A stretch of DNA of 64,000 nt, from positions 62,001-126,000 of the forward strand of contig NZ_LMJA01000030.1 of assembly GCF_001428895.1 (NCBI RefSeq), given 5' to 3'. The position numbers were made by a program, and so were the translations under genes. The stretch is from Mycobacterium sp. Root265. GTDB taxonomy: Bacteria; Actinomycetota; Actinomycetes; Mycobacteriales; Mycobacteriaceae. Within the stretch, counting starts at the first letter, position 1. The number at the start of each line of letters is the position of its first letter. Shown in pieces: positions 57,979 to 63,635 of the stretch. Below the pieces are notes generated by a model, which made no database searches, was not told the DNA's origin, and was given only the letters and a program-made list of their open reading frames with translations.

Positions 57979-58254
57979 CGCTCCCACCGGGCCCCGCAGG
58001 TGCTGGTGCATGTGGCCGGTGGCTCCAGCGCGTCGGCCAAGGCAGCGCTGCGCACCTACAGCAAGGGCCTGGCCAACGAGGTCGCACCGCGCGGCAGCCG
58101 CGTCAACACGGTGTCGCCGGGGTTCATTCAGACCGGCGCCGCCGAGGCACTGATCGACCGGATCGCCGCGGCCGGCTTCCTGGAGTCCGATGCGGCGGGT
58201 TCGGTGGTGGGCGCCGATATCGTCGTCGACGGCGGCACGGTGCCGACCGTCTGA
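57979..58254 (+). pseudogene. Remnant of an SDR oxidoreductase with internal deletions
   Basis: The frame keeps recognisable SDR pieces: VLVHVAGGSS (NNAG region), SAKAALRTYSKGLANEVAPRG, RVNTVSPGFIQT and VVGADIVVDGGTVPTV. Everything N-terminal, including the cofactor loop, is missing. The catalytic Tyr segment is deleted between VAGGSS and SAKAAL, and about 30 codons are absent between DRIAAAG and FLESDAAG. The remaining parts stay in frame. It is best read as a decayed gene with a 5' truncation and two internal deletions, not a functional short protein. Confidence 0.8.
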
Positions 58255-58258
58255 CGAA

Positions 58259-58552
58259 CTAGACGTCGCTGGTGCTGTACCGCGTCTTGACCGGCGGTGC
58301 GCTCAGCAGGGCGGGCACCTCGGTGAGTTTGCCCTCGCCGGCCCGGAAGGCGCGGTAGGCCTCATCGTGTTCGACGGACTCCCAGAGTTCGTAGATCAGC
58401 CAGTGGCCTTCGTCGTTCTCGTCGACCAGCACGTCGGTGCCGAGATTGCCGGGAAAGGCCCGGGTGTCGGTGAGGGCGCGCCGGAAGACATCGCGCGCGT
58501 CGGCGACGGATTCGTGCTTGATCTTCAGTTCGAGGATGACGGTGACCGGCAT
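58259..58552 (-). CDS. Antibiotic biosynthesis monooxygenase (ABM) fold protein
   Basis: This 97-residue protein has the dimeric ferredoxin-like ABM fold: PVTVILELKIKHE as the first strand, TRAFPGNLGTDVLVDE in the middle, and YELWESVEHDEAYRAF before the last helix. Members act as monooxygenases, in quinone or heme degradation, or as small stress proteins. No catalytic residue is obvious here. An ATG at 58564 is an alternative start adding four residues. It lies close to, and in the same orientation as, the phytochrome gene upstream. Confidence 0.82.
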   Translation of the reverse strand: MPVTVILELKIKHESVADARDVFRRALTDTRAFPGNLGTDVLVDENDEGHWLIYELWESVEHDEAYRAFRAGEGKLTEVPALLSAPPVKTRYSTSDV

Positions 58553-58576
58553 GGACGACAACATACCGTCGCGATG

Positions 58577-60835
58577 TCAGCGGCGCTGCAGCGTGATCAC
58601 GGTGACGTCATCGTCGGTCTCACTCGATGCCAGCGCCTTCGAGATGCCCGATGCGGAGAGGTCGCCGGCCCGGCCGAGCGCGCCGGCCAGTCTGGCCATC
58701 CCGTCGTCCACGGTCGAGTGCCGGCGTTCCACCAGGCCGTCGGAGTACATCACCAGTCCCTGACCGTGATCGAGGGTGAAGGTGCTGGGCGCGTACTGCA
58801 CACCCCGCACACCGATCGGCGGAGACAGCCGCACCGGAGCCTGCTCGACCACGGGGCCAACCAGGTAGGGCATCAGGTGCCCGGCCGATGCCGCCTCGAC
58901 CTGTCCGGACGCCGGGTCGACCCGCGCGAGGATCACCGTCGCGAACGTGCGGGGCATCAGGTGCAGGCTGAAGTCGTTGAGCTGGCCCAATGCCTCGGCG
59001 GGTGTGGCCCCGGCAAACAGCAATGAGCGCAACACGTTACGCAGTTGGGCCATCGCCCCGGCGGCGGGCAGGCCGTGACCGGCGACATCACCGAGCAGCA
59101 CGATGAGCCGCCCGTTCGGGAGCTGGAAGGCGTCGTACCAATCGCCGCCCACCCGGCCACCGGCGGCGGGCCGGTAGTCGGCCGAAAGCTCCCAGCCCGG
59201 GATGGACGGGATCGATGCGGGCAGCAGGCTGCGCTGCAGCATCTCCGCGACGCGGAAGGCCCCCCGGGTGCGCCGGTACAACTCCTCGACGAGGTGACCG
59301 CGCAGCGCCTCGGCGGTCTCGACCTGGATCGGCGCCCACGGTTCGCAGCACTTGTCCACAACCTCACGCCAGCGTTCGAACGATTTGCGCGGGCTGAGCC
59401 GAACCCCGTCGCCTTCCCGCACCGCGATGGCCTTGTTGTGCGGATCGCCGCCCCAATCCACCGCGCGCAGGGCCTCCTGCCGGAACCAGACCACGTATTG
59501 CTCATCGGGCAGATTCAGCGCGAGCGCGCCGGCGGCCTCGTGCAGATCCAGGCCGGGCAGAGCGTCGGACAGCCGCTCGGTGGATGCCATTTCCTCACCC
59601 GCGCCGCGCGCCCAGGTCGCGACCTGGGCCACCACGTCGGCCGGCGGAACCACTCCCAGTTCGTGGTACTCGCCTCCGAGGCTGACCACCACGCCGGCCG
59701 CGGGCAGCAGGTCCAGCAGGCTGGGGGAGCGCAACAGCGCCGACGCGACGGATTCGCTCTCGTTCAGCGTTGCCGCTGTCACGTGGGCCAGCATCGACTG
59801 GGAGGCCAGCCGCTCGCGCAGCTGGTCGTCATCGAACCGGTCGATCAGACGCAATGACAGTGTGGAGCCCAGGAATTCGGCGGCGGCCCGGGCCCCGTAG
59901 GGCGGCAGGTGTGGTCCGGCGTAATGGTGGCAGGCGATCAATCCCCAGAGCCTGCCGTGGCGCAGCAGTGAAATGGACATCGACGCGCGCACACCCATGT
60001 TCTGCAGGTATTCGATGTGGATCGGTGAGACGCTGCGCAGTGTGGCGTGCGTGAGATCCAGCGGTGCCCCACTGGCCGGATCCATGGTGGGTACCAGCGG
60101 AGCCGGGGTGTAGTCGACGTCGGAGATGAGACGCAGCCAGCTCTTCTCATACATCGCCCGCGCCTGCGCCGGGATATCGCTCGCCGGATAGTGCAGGCCG
60201 AGAAAGGAATTGAGGTCGTCATGCTTGCATTCGGCGACGACTTCGCCGTTGTAGTCGCGGTCGTAGCGGTACACCATCACCCGGTCGAAGCCGGTGAGAT
60301 CACGGACCGCGCGGGCGGTGGTGTCATACAGCTCGGTCATCGAGGACGCCCGGTTCAGCTCCTCGACCGAATTACGAACCGCCTGATAGGTATTGGGGAA
60401 GGAGAACGGCCGTTCCCCGAACGCGATCTCGAGTTCGACCAGCAGCACGCCTCCCGGCTCGCGATGCAGTAGCGCATCGAAGGGCCGGGATATCCCGTCG
60501 ACCGTGAGATTCAACTCCAGCGGATTGCGTTGCCGCAGATCACCGAATGCCGACGCCGACTGCTGGACCCGTTCGGCCTGGGCTGGGCCCATCAAAGCCG
60601 ACAGGTGCCTGCCCAGGACCTCATCGACGGACACACCGAGCAGATCGGCGACGTTCGCGCTGACCTGACGGATCTCGAAGTCGGGCTCGCGGACCACCGC
60701 GAGCACCCCGCGCGGCTGGATGCTGCCCGGGATGTGGATCGGCTCGCGTGCGCAGTTGTCGAGATCGATGGGTGTGCCGACAGGCAGCAGATCGTCGGCG
60801 GCGTCGTCGGTGTTATCGCGCGAAATTAGGTCCAC
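58577..60835 (-). CDS. Bacteriophytochrome with SpoIIE-type PP2C phosphatase output
   Basis: This 752-residue photoreceptor has the PAS-GAF-PHY core of bacteriophytochromes fused to a PP2C phosphatase. Photosensory landmarks are intact: biliverdin Cys28 in NCAREPIHIPGSIQPRG (PRG instead of PHG), PASDIP at 217-222 with Asp220, His273 in SVSPIHIEYLQNMG, and the PHY-tongue PRKSF at 482-486. The output (about 525-752) keeps the metal-binding residues in GGDWYDAF (Asp565), GDVAGHG (Asp583), YSDGL and TDDDVT. There is no histidine kinase domain. The STAS gene upstream is divergent, suggesting red/far-red light controls dephosphorylation of an anti-sigma antagonist. No heme oxygenase gene lies in the window. 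Confidence 0.93.
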   Translation of the reverse strand: MDLISRDNTDDAADDLLPVGTPIDLDNCAREPIHIPGSIQPRGVLAVVREPDFEIRQVSANVADLLGVSVDEVLGRHLSALMGPAQAERVQQSASAFGDLRQRNPLELNLTVDGISRPFDALLHREPGGVLLVELEIAFGERPFSFPNTYQAVRNSVEELNRASSMTELYDTTARAVRDLTGFDRVMVYRYDRDYNGEVVAECKHDDLNSFLGLHYPASDIPAQARAMYEKSWLRLISDVDYTPAPLVPTMDPASGAPLDLTHATLRSVSPIHIEYLQNMGVRASMSISLLRHGRLWGLIACHHYAGPHLPPYGARAAAEFLGSTLSLRLIDRFDDDQLRERLASQSMLAHVTAATLNESESVASALLRSPSLLDLLPAAGVVVSLGGEYHELGVVPPADVVAQVATWARGAGEEMASTERLSDALPGLDLHEAAGALALNLPDEQYVVWFRQEALRAVDWGGDPHNKAIAVREGDGVRLSPRKSFERWREVVDKCCEPWAPIQVETAEALRGHLVEELYRRTRGAFRVAEMLQRSLLPASIPSIPGWELSADYRPAAGGRVGGDWYDAFQLPNGRLIVLLGDVAGHGLPAAGAMAQLRNVLRSLLFAGATPAEALGQLNDFSLHLMPRTFATVILARVDPASGQVEAASAGHLMPYLVGPVVEQAPVRLSPPIGVRGVQYAPSTFTLDHGQGLVMYSDGLVERRHSTVDDGMARLAGALGRAGDLSASGISKALASSETDDDVTVITLQRR

Positions 60836-60928
60836 CCCCAGGTTGCGGTGCTGACTTCCCAGCTCGAGAGTGCCAGGCCGCCCCGTGTCTGGTCACATCG
60901 ACTTCGGTGTTGCCGTAGGCTCAAGATC

Positions 60929-60944
60929 AGTAAGCGTTCTAACT
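60929..60944. promoter_or_regulatory. Imperfect dyad between phytochrome and STAS genes
   Basis: AGTAAGCGTTCTAACT is a 16-base imperfect palindrome of the form AGTnAGnnnnCTnACT in the 173-base divergent region. It could be an operator shared by both genes. No clear sigma-F-type promoter was found by eye. Confidence 0.3.
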
Positions 60945-61008
60945 TGCCCGGTTGAGCAACAGCCCGCGAGACATTGCGCGCCGAATCAACGCTTTGGCGA
61001 GGTATTCG

Positions 61009-61386
61009 ATGACACACCAATTCGTATCCGGTCCATCGTCGTTGGTGTGCACCGAGACGTGGCATGCCACGACCGTAGTGATCAGCTGTTCCGGCGTGGT
61101 CGACATGCTGACCGCGCCGCACATGGGCCAGCTCATCACGACGGTTCTGGGCAAGCGGCCGTCGGTGGTCATCATCGACCTCACCGAGACCTCCATGTTT
61201 GCCTCCTGCGGTATGTCGCTGCTGGTGGAGACCCACGAGAAACTCCCCGAGGACGCGAAACTGATCGTCGTCGCGGACGGACCCGTCACCCGGCGTCCCC
61301 TGGAACTGGTCGGACTGTCGGCGTTCCTCACGCTGCGCTCGACCCTGGATGAGGCGCTCGAGGACGTACCGCTCGCCGAGCACTGA
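61009..61386 (+). CDS. STAS domain anti-sigma factor antagonist
   Basis: This 125-residue protein has the SpoIIAA/RsbV STAS fold: a beta strand TVVISCSGVVD, then SVVIIDLTETSMFASCGMSLL. Ser66 in FASCG aligns with the serine phosphorylated by anti-sigma kinases in SpoIIAA (motif DSSG), though the flanking Asp and second Ser are Ala and Cys here. ATG at 61009 follows GAGG; an upstream TTG would extend it. Divergent from the phytochrome-PP2C gene, it is the likely phosphatase substrate. Its cognate anti-sigma kinase and sigma factor are not in the window. Confidence 0.85.
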   Translation: MTHQFVSGPSSLVCTETWHATTVVISCSGVVDMLTAPHMGQLITTVLGKRPSVVIIDLTETSMFASCGMSLLVETHEKLPEDAKLIVVADGPVTRRPLELVGLSAFLTLRSTLDEALEDVPLAEH

Positions 61387-61419
61387 GACACCCGCACGCG
61401 TGTCGTGCACCATGGCCCC

Positions 61420-62163
61420 ATGACTGTCGTATTCGTGCATGGGAACCCGGAGACGAGTGCCATCTGGGGGCCGTTGATCCAAGCCCTAAACCGGGACGAC
61501 ATCGTCACGCTGTCCCCGCCCGGGTTCGGCGCCCCGCTGCCCGCCGGGTTCGACCCCACTTACCTTGCCTACCGGGACTGGCTCGAAGACGAACTGCAAC
61601 AGATCGATGGTCCCGTCGACCTGGTCGGCCACGATTGGGGTGGCGGGCACGTCGTCAACGTCGTCATGCACCGCCCTGAACTGGTCCGGAGCTGGGTCAG
61701 CGACATCGTCGGTGTCTTCGACCCCGAATATGTCTGGCACGACCTGGCCCAGATCTGGCAGACGCCGGATGCCGGCGAGGAATACGTCGCGGCCATGATC
61801 TCCGGCATCTCCGAGGAGCGGATCGCGGCGGTGGCCGCGATGGGCGTCGGACCCGAGGTCGCACCGGCCCTGGTCGCGGCACAGAATGCCGACATGGGTG
61901 CCGCGATGCTGCGGCTGTACCGCTCGGCGGCCCAACCGGTGCTCGCCGAGGCGGGCGTTGCGCTGGGAAATGCCGCCGCACGTCCCGGCCTGGCGATCCT
62001 GGCCACCGAGGACCACTTCGTCGGTTCCGCCGAGATCAGGCGCCGGGCGGCCGACCGGGCCGGAGCCCGCACCGAGGTACTCGACGGACTGGGGCACTGG
62101 TGGATGATCGAGGACCCGGCTCGCGGCGCGGAGGTGCTCACGCGCTTCTGGGCCGCCCTCTGA
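61420..62163 (+). CDS. Alpha/beta hydrolase (epoxide hydrolase/haloalkane dehalogenase-like)
   Basis: This 247-residue hydrolase has oxyanion motif HGNP (7-10), nucleophile elbow GHDWGG with Asp72 in place of the usual Ser, and the C-terminal His in DGLGHWWM. An Asp nucleophile points to epoxide hydrolase, dehalogenase or dehalogenase-like chemistry. The cap domain is small. The gene lies 33 bases after the STAS gene in the same direction, so they could share a transcript, though no functional link is evident. Confidence 0.85.
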   Translation: MTVVFVHGNPETSAIWGPLIQALNRDDIVTLSPPGFGAPLPAGFDPTYLAYRDWLEDELQQIDGPVDLVGHDWGGGHVVNVVMHRPELVRSWVSDIVGVFDPEYVWHDLAQIWQTPDAGEEYVAAMISGISEERIAAVAAMGVGPEVAPALVAAQNADMGAAMLRLYRSAAQPVLAEAGVALGNAAARPGLAILATEDHFVGSAEIRRRAADRAGARTEVLDGLGHWWMIEDPARGAEVLTRFWAAL

Positions 62164-62210
62164 GGCTCGCCGAATAGGAACTCGAGGCCAGGTCGCCGTA
62201 CCCTTGCGCG

Positions 62211-63635
62211 GTGACCGCGATCGATCCGGACAAGCTGCGCGCCTGCCTGCAGGTGCTGGCCGACGTCGAATCGTTGCCGCCCGAGCACCCGGACGCGGTC
62301 GCCGTCCGACGCGCCACCGCGGGCATCTTCAAGTCGGTGCGCAAGGCCCGCAGGCACGCCAAGCGCGACGCGGTGGCCGAGGCCGACAAGGCTGTCATCG
62401 CCGCGACCGCCACCGGGGCGCCCGGACGTATCGACGACGAGACGGCCGGCCTGCCGCTGGTCTCCTCGGTGACCGGCGCGTCCGCGGGAACCCTGCTGCG
62501 GTCGCGGGCGTGCTACATCTGCAAGAAGCAGCACACCGTCGTCGACGCCTTCTACCACCAGCTTTGTCCGGAATGCGCGGCGTTCAGCCATGCCAAACGT
62601 GACGCCCGCACCGACCTGACCGGCCGCACCGCGCTGCTCACCGGCGGGCGCGCCAAGATCGGCATGTACATCGCGTTGCGCCTGCTGCGCGACGGTGCAC
62701 ACACCACGATCACCACCCGCTTCCCGAACGACGCGGTGCGCCGCTTCGCCGCCATGCCCGACAGCGCCGACTGGCTGCACCGGCTGCGGATCATCGGCAT
62801 CGACCTGCGCGATCCCGCTCAGGTGGTGGCGCTGGCCGACACGGTGGCCGCGCACGGACCGCTGGACATCCTGATCAACAACGCCGCGCAGACGGTGCGC
62901 CGGGCACCCGGCTCCTACTCGGCGCTCGTCGAGGCCGAACGCACGCCGCCGCCCGAGCTGGCTCAGGTCGACGTGGTCACCTTCGACCGGGTCAGCGACG
63001 CGCACCCGGCGGCACTGGCGGGCAGCCTGGCCGAGCATCAGACTCCGCACGCGATCACCGAGCTGGCGTTGACGGCCCGCAGTGCTTCGCCGGAGCGGAT
63101 CGCGGCAGGCACGGCCATCGACGCGGGCGGACTGCTGCCCGACACGGCCCCCATCAACAGCTGGACCCAGCGCGTGCACGAGGTCGACGCGATGGAGCTG
63201 CTGGAAGTGCAGCTCTGCAACCAGACCGCCCCGTTCATCCTGGTGAGCCGGCTGCGACCGGCGATGGCCGCATCGCCCGCACGCCGCAAGTACGTCGTGA
63301 ACGTCTCGGCGATGGAGGGGCAGTTCGGCCGCCGCTACAAGGGGCCCGGGCATCCGCACACCAACATGGCCAAGGCCGCGCTGAACATGCTCACCCGCAC
63401 CAGCTCCGCCGAGATGCTGGAACAGGACGGCATCCTGATGACCGCCGTGGACACCGGCTGGATCACCGATGAGCGGCCGCACCCCACCAAGCTGCGGCTG
63501 GCCGAGGAAGGCTTCCACGCGCCGCTGGATCTGGTCGACGGCGCCGCGCGCGTCTATGACCCGATCGTGCGCGGCGAGGCCGGCGAGGATCTGCACGGCT
63601 GCTTCCTGAAGGATTACGCGCCCAGCGAGTGGTAG
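62211..63635 (+). CDS. Zinc-ribbon/SDR fusion protein lacking the catalytic Tyr
   Basis: The 474-residue product has an N-terminal helical region, a zinc ribbon with CYIC and CPEC (Cys101, Cys104, Cys119, Cys122), then an SDR domain from about 137. The SDR keeps TGGRAKIG (144-151), NNAAQ (223-227), Ser366 and Lys388, but the YxxxK position holds Thr384 (HPHTNMAK). A 95-residue insertion (about 230-325) separates the NNAA strand from the catalytic strand. It may be a non-catalytic or altered SDR. It uses GTG at 62211. Confidence 0.82.
   Translation: MTAIDPDKLRACLQVLADVESLPPEHPDAVAVRRATAGIFKSVRKARRHAKRDAVAEADKAVIAATATGAPGRIDDETAGLPLVSSVTGASAGTLLRSRACYICKKQHTVVDAFYHQLCPECAAFSHAKRDARTDLTGRTALLTGGRAKIGMYIALRLLRDGAHTTITTRFPNDAVRRFAAMPDSADWLHRLRIIGIDLRDPAQVVALADTVAAHGPLDILINNAAQTVRRAPGSYSALVEAERTPPPELAQVDVVTFDRVSDAHPAALAGSLAEHQTPHAITELALTARSASPERIAAGTAIDAGGLLPDTAPINSWTQRVHEVDAMELLEVQLCNQTAPFILVSRLRPAMAASPARRKYVVNVSAMEGQFGRRYKGPGHPHTNMAKAALNMLTRTSSAEMLEQDGILMTAVDTGWITDERPHPTKLRLAEEGFHAPLDLVDGAARVYDPIVRGEAGEDLHGCFLKDYAPSEW

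Follow-up and report, generated by a model that had tools for sequence, protein, structure and literature searches.

A bacteriophytochrome-PP2C phosphatase gene divergent from an RsfB-like STAS gene in Mycobacterium sp. Root265, with a possible light input to SigF

The divergent pair and its products

We analyzed a 64,000-nucleotide stretch of Mycobacterium sp. Root265 (contig NZ_LMJA01000030.1, positions 62,001 to 126,000; hereafter the window), whose source genome totals 6.67 Mb and is split over 30 contigs. A bacteriophytochrome gene with a SpoIIE-type PP2C phosphatase as output lies here divergent from a gene for an RsfB-like STAS protein, and both open reading frames (ORFs) were found where an earlier interpretation made from the letters alone (the sequence-only reading) had placed them. 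The conserved sensor-phosphatase is real and its RsfB-type partner is probably dedicated to it; our favored proposal, at a probability of about 0.6, is that light controls how far the neighboring STAS protein is phosphorylated and, through it, SigF. The main features are as follows (positions are those of the window).

58577..60826, reverse strand: bacteriophytochrome-PP2C phosphatase (PAS_2, GAF, PHY, SpoIIE), defined by Pfam, residues and start alignment, with AUU at 60826 as the probable start; the GTG-started ORF reaches 60835
60752..60754, reverse strand: codon of Cys28, the bilin attachment site expected from family precedent, invariant in 58/58 relatives
61009..61386, forward strand: RsfB-like STAS protein of 125 amino acids, defined by Pfam and by alignment to solved RsfB 8ih8 (E 1.5e-18)
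61204..61206, forward strand: codon of Ser66, the predicted phospho-acceptor, from the alignment to RsfB; Ser in 15/15 distinct clade members aligned

In the phytochrome, Pfam located PAS_2 (28-137), GAF (166-316), PHY (353-523, E 1.9e-40) and SpoIIE (573-751, E 4.1e-40), and no histidine-kinase domain was among the matches at E <= 0.01, which agrees with the claimed absence of the kinase usual for bacteriophytochromes. Residues were compared over 70 loci (L020-L089), 69 of which gave proteins, 58 of them distinct (56 mycobacterial, L084 and L089 from other actinobacteria); the broken match L083 was omitted from the residue count, and broken or partial phytochrome-PP2C matches in G170, G015, G076, G103 and G132, a distant 35% match in G159 and sensor-part-only matches stood outside the 58 genomes counted as having the full-length protein. 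C28, Y189, D220, I221, P222, H273, H303, P482, R483, S485 and F486 were invariant in 58/58 distinct relatives (K484 was outside the residue check). Cys28, Asp220 of PASDIP, His273 and PRKSF (482-486) are present as claimed, and the protein has the PAS-GAF-PHY core, N-terminal Cys, PASDIP Asp, pocket His and PRxSF tongue of a bacteriophytochrome; the top solved relatives listed were phytochromes. NCBIfam NF041576 also gave a match, of 333.6 bits, which falls short of its whole-protein cut-off of 1040. The nearest named relative by the phytochrome protein was Mycolicibacterium sp. P9-22 (93%), in a search from which database entries close to that of the window may be absent.

The output domain matched PF07228 over its cut-off and carries the metal-binding Asp residues of SpoIIE/RsbU-type PP2C phosphatases: D565, D568, D583, D699, D742 and D743 were invariant in all 58 distinct relatives, and D741, the first of the terminal DDD, varied in 12 of them. 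Its sole solved-structure match at E <= 0.001 was Rv1364c (3ke6, E 3.7e-21). The linker between PHY and PP2C (511-558) had an insertion relative to the window sequence in 1 of 57 aligned rows and a deletion in none, as against insertions in 51/57 (PHY) and 46/57 (PP2C) and deletions in 2/57 and 5/57, respectively. The literature is cited here from excerpts of the papers; in these, the output of phytochrome-cyclases is set by linker length (PMC9587094) and the PPM phosphatase RsbU is activated through a coiled-coil linker (PMC12143880). The genome also holds a second phytochrome, a PAS-GAF-PHY protein of 488 amino acids without output domain, whose gene overlaps an upstream CheB-CheR-PAS-GGDEF-EAL gene (1487 amino acids; both in L143 4783-10709).

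The divergent ORF matched the STAS family (PF01740, E 6.7e-12), and its closest solved relatives were 4qtp, an anti-sigma factor antagonist (E 2.7e-20), and RsfB 8ih8. Ser66, counted from ATG 61009, pairs with a serine of RsfB that, counted on the printed alignment, fits the acceptor Ser61 given in the excerpt of PMC10950880. The lone STAS domain with an acceptor serine in the RsfB position fits an RsfB-type antagonist, and the serine stood at the acceptor column in all 15 members aligned, consistent with the phospho-acceptor-like Ser66 proposed earlier. By the TIGR00377 model, the window STAS scored 44.5 bits and the RsfB-like protein of the same genome 51.8, both below the cut-off of 53.45.

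Conservation of the pair and the proposed partner switch

Among the matches listed, 58 of the 248 genomes searched in the genus had the full-length phytochrome-phosphatase. A STAS orthologue (at least 56% identity) was found in nine of the 248 and adjoined the phytochrome in 9/9, which bears out the conservation of the pair that the sequence-only reading had proposed to check; the next match by score was 50% identical and located elsewhere, and the top identity among the other matches listed was 51%. Neighbor families were searched by tblastn with one query per family and checked by Pfam on representatives. In the 15 distinct loci with STAS, named loci included (the STAS clade), the two genes were divergent without exception, their matches lying 174-229 bases apart. 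STAS was retained in all 15, ABM and SDR genes in 13 each and an alpha/beta hydrolase in eight (nine clade loci have 1.5-kb flanks only, which bears on the SDR and alpha/beta hydrolase counts). The 56 distinct mycobacterial loci fell into these 15; eight, from the M. gordonae and M. asiaticum groups, where the phytochrome stands tail-to-tail with genes for another STAS and an RsbW-like kinase; 16 with an adjoining heme oxygenase gene; and 17 with none of the searched families beside the phytochrome.

Genes resembling the other parts of a partner switch lie elsewhere in the same genome, and antagonist, kinase/anti-sigma, phosphatase and sigma factor genes are thus present genome-wide, not in one locus. 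Locus L144 encodes an RsfB-like STAS, an RsbW2-like kinase, a CHASE3 histidine kinase (RsfS-like) and a REC-PP2C protein (RsfR-like), which is the rsfB-rsbW2-rsfS-rsfR arrangement reported for M. smegmatis (PMC7693655; PMC10950880), and in L008 an RsbW1-like protein adjoins a SigF-like factor. The Rsf, RsbW and SigF names are assigned here by domain and arrangement. Together with L003, another RsbW2-like kinase (59% to the first), there are two candidates for the anti-sigma kinase, in line with the expectation that it is encoded elsewhere. L003-type kinases (at least 72% identity) occurred in 6/248 genomes, all six with the STAS gene; L003 was not retained as a dedicated kinase, since the other three of the nine STAS genomes had only 52-58% matches and the co-occurrence may be shared descent only. 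The three SpoIIE matches of the genome were the phytochrome, the RsfR-like protein and one at C28:576160 (L166 4444-5766), whose ORF reads PAS-PP2C by eye. Some 7 kb separate this gene from the second RsbW2-like kinase (G000:C28:583489-583968), and by eye there is no STAS between them.

We infer a light response, its direction (light on or off), a substrate, a kinase and a sigma factor in the following way. A bilin-binding red/far-red sensor would drive, through PHY and a helical linker of nearly fixed length, the SpoIIE-type PP2C domain, which, judging from the Rv1364c match and the precedent of RsfR, a REC-PP2C that dephosphorylates RsfB (PMC10950880), would remove the phosphate from Ser66 of the divergently encoded RsfB paralogue. 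That phosphate would be placed by an RsbW2-type kinase, as RsbW2 phosphorylates RsfB at Ser63 according to the excerpt of PMC7693655, and the unphosphorylated STAS protein would bind the anti-SigF protein RsbW1, freeing SigF. The sequence-only reading is borne out in part: a phosphatase-type phytochrome with an RsfB-like STAS partner is supported by the conserved adjacency, the RsfB-like sequence with the acceptor serine, the SigF switch genes and the STAS and RsbW-like genes beside the phytochrome in a separate lineage; the canonical heme oxygenase is the part that failed.

Several results weigh against this proposal. The kinase is not in the locus, PF13581 having no match inside the window; no SigF-type promoter (G[GT]TT-N14-18-GGGTA) was found between positions 60000 and 62000; and the genome has no match to canonical heme oxygenase (PF01126). 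The pairing is a single change, hence a single origin, on a quick tree of 57 rows (L089 omitted) with 20 of 54 inner branches open. The 17 loci without an adjacent family (two with a 36% match to one family 2-4 kb off), together with the Georgenia and Nocardioidaceae loci (L084 and L089), where no searched family adjoins the phytochrome, indicate that the phosphatase can have other targets. In addition, both aligned STAS proteins from beside M. gordonae/asiaticum phytochromes (L063 8279-8911 and L076 8238-8729) have Cys instead of Ser at the acceptor column; the STAS of this group is therefore unlikely to use that serine, which hints at a different kind of control.

These results bear on two other explanations. 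In one, which we consider unlikely although it is the strongest competitor, the targets of the light-regulated phosphatase are the genome's principal RsfB or several STAS proteins of the RsfB family, and the adjacent STAS serves as a co-regulated modulator rather than as the chief substrate. The 17/56 loci that keep the sensor without adjacent STAS, RsbW or heme oxygenase of the searched families would fit this, as would the 48% identity over 94 amino acids between the window STAS and the RsfB-like protein of the genome and the six matches to the window STAS, itself included, in that genome; however, the adjacent STAS was kept in every clade locus while some other neighbors were lost, and its acceptor serine in every distinct member. 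In the other, the two genes adjoin by chance or general synteny without forming a functional pair, which is highly improbable: the single origin and the similar conservation of SDR and ABM would agree with it, but STAS was the only neighbor kept in 15/15, no match of at least 56% occurred away from the sensor in the 248 genomes, and a different STAS with an RsbW-like kinase stands beside the same phytochrome in other lineages.

Chromophore supply and translation starts

The sequence-only reading had placed a heme oxygenase elsewhere in the genome, and as stated this did not hold; such a supply is typical of bacteriophytochromes, not strictly defining. Only the canonical family is missing, and "no heme oxygenase at all" is too strong a description. 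Across the genus, PF01126 occurred in 87/248 genomes, 33/58 with the full sensor and 54/190 of the others (Fisher p 1.3e-4, uncorrected for descent), and it was not found in 25/58 sensor genomes (our own and 24 others). Presence or absence of PF01126 is a lineage property, since the state changes only twice on the tree over 44 labelled of the 57 rows.

We compared invariant columns in the 20 rows without heme oxygenase with those in equal-sized draws from the 24 rows with it. The chromophore-binding domains were not loosened (PAS, 46 vs a mean of 37 of 110 columns; GAF, 128 vs 130 of 193), and PHY (54 vs 65 of 180) and PP2C (71 vs 84 of 193) were somewhat less invariant. The lower values in PHY and PP2C, the 25 sensor genomes without PF01126 and the way its absence tracks lineage would suit a loss of light sensing in such lineages, with the apo-protein or another ligand (heme product, redox) controlling the phosphatase. 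We judge this improbable: the checked chromophore residues are invariant in all 58 relatives, PAS and GAF are no less constrained, and other possible bilin sources exist in the genome, namely an MhuD-like protein with N, W and H (L133), four PF14518 matches at three places and two DUF2470 matches; the products of MhuD are mycobilins and, in minor amount, biliverdin (PMC8801480). The distance between one PF14518 match (G000:C10:90338-90843; L147, L148) and the SigF-like gene is about 2.3 kb. A fuller version of the light-to-SigF proposal, in which the red-light input works without canonical heme oxygenase on bilin from MhuD-like, HugZ-like or PF14518 proteins, possibly with a mycobilin as a new phytochrome chromophore, and the sensor is translated from an AUU start, is a long shot when taken as a whole.

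The gene downstream of the phytochrome was also considered as a chromophore source.

58259..58564, reverse strand: ABM-domain protein (Pfam), 12 bases downstream of the phytochrome and in the same direction, in 13/15 clade loci

It probably shares an operon with the phytochrome. The IsdG/MhuD-type Asn, Trp and His (the Trp being Trp66 in MhuD) are absent from the window protein and 12 aligned relatives, and the matches of this weakly LsrG-like protein were other ABM proteins and LsrG; for both reasons we rejected it as the missing heme oxygenase of IsdG/MhuD type. The excerpt of PMC8801480 names Asn7 and His75 as catalytic in MhuD. ABM was kept in the 13 clade loci without PF01126 in the genome and missing only in L026 and L056, whose genomes have PF01126; these two are sisters, so the exclusion amounts to about one event. 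Outside the clade, 17 further sensor genomes also had no PF01126.

The phytochrome start was surveyed at window positions 60824-60839 and in L021-L028, L053-L057 and L086, accepting only starts in frame with Cys28. One aligned position read ATT in nine, ATC in four, ATA in one and ATG in one of these 15 clade loci (non-ATG in 14/15), was in frame with Cys28 in 15/15 and followed a G-rich, ribosome-site-like run by 5-8 bases. Out-of-frame look-alikes of the start occurred in L021, L028 and L057. Length changes after this position keep the frame; before it, spacing varies by non-multiples of three, so the preceding sequence is not coding. No ATG, GTG or TTG was present in the open frame ahead of Cys28 in 6/15 loci (L021, L023, L024, L026, L053 and L056). 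GTG 60835, three codons upstream of AUU and inside the G-rich run, is not conserved among the 15 loci. Translation thus probably starts at AUU 60826, to judge from the aligned loci. AUU starts are rare, though known for infC. Annotation by the usual start codons could lose Cys28. Two loci from outside the clade are also unusual: L088 lacks ATG, GTG and TTG ahead of Cys28, and L036 has CTG where its relatives have GTG. Odd start codons may therefore recur in the phytochrome-phosphatase family.

60835..60839, reverse strand: GGGGG run, putatively a ribosome site, overlapping the unconserved GTG and ending 8 bases before AUU
60836..61008, between the divergent genes: intergenic region with a -10-like TAGGCT (60916-60921) and the conserved non-coding STAS leader, from the alignment of relatives

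On the other strand, the STAS gene starts at ATG 61009, preceded by GCGAGGT, and not at TTG 60952, because single-base indels occur among relatives in the stretch between them. The STAS 5' leader (60922-61008) is strongly conserved as DNA in the 15 loci, yet non-coding. A structured RNA was unsupported here, with two-sided change in 0/19 predicted pairs (14 of 15 leaders used; L021, near-identical to L020, was omitted), and Rfam gave no match up to E 1 in window positions 58000-62500.

Relation to known systems and significance

Phytochromes with SpoIIE/PPM output are already known as a class, and the window protein resembles them in having PAS-GAF-PHY followed by a PPM-type phosphatase (PMC9587094, Fig. 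2, in the part consulted, which names neither a substrate nor a gene neighborhood for the class). In the excerpts of open-licence literature, no paper was found that ties such a phytochrome to a STAS antagonist or to mycobacterial SigF. The proposed switch is closest to the RsfR-RsfB-RsbW2-RsbW1-SigF system of M. smegmatis, in which a SpoIIE-type PP2C acts on the serine of an RsfB-type STAS (here by analogy) and to whose kinase and sigma factor similar genes exist here (PMC7693655; PMC10950880); it differs in that PAS-GAF-PHY replaces a receiver domain fed by the RsfS kinase and that the STAS is an RsfB paralogue. Rv1364c (PAS-PP2C-kinase-STAS), for which membership of the SigF switch in M. 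tuberculosis has been suggested (PMC10950880), has a related PP2C part, whereas here the sensor is a phytochrome and kinase and STAS are on separate proteins.

Light is also fed into a general-stress sigma pathway, with STAS involved, by YtvA and Lmo0799 and in the red-light SigB response, but YtvA and Lmo0799 are flavin blue-light sensors with STAS as the output, and for red-light SigB activation in Bacillus and Listeria the excerpt reports no certain receptor and no phytochrome-like protein detected there (PMC3019169). The photocobilin SasPcob of Saccharothrix is likewise a light receptor with predicted STAS and SpoIIE partners; unlike the window protein it is not a phytochrome and binds B12 and bilin, and its partners are only predicted (PMC10979010). 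Known LOV and BLUF proteins, too, can carry SpoIIE or STAS as their output (PMC4844311).

M. smegmatis requires SigF to have carotenoid pigment and to withstand heat, oxidative and acid stress (PMC10950880). The intact chromophore pocket in phytochromes of genomes without canonical heme oxygenase is a testable puzzle. If the proposed switch is true, mycobacteria would have, in this locus, a direct route from light to SigF, and its sensor would be a natural red-light phosphatase for optogenetics.

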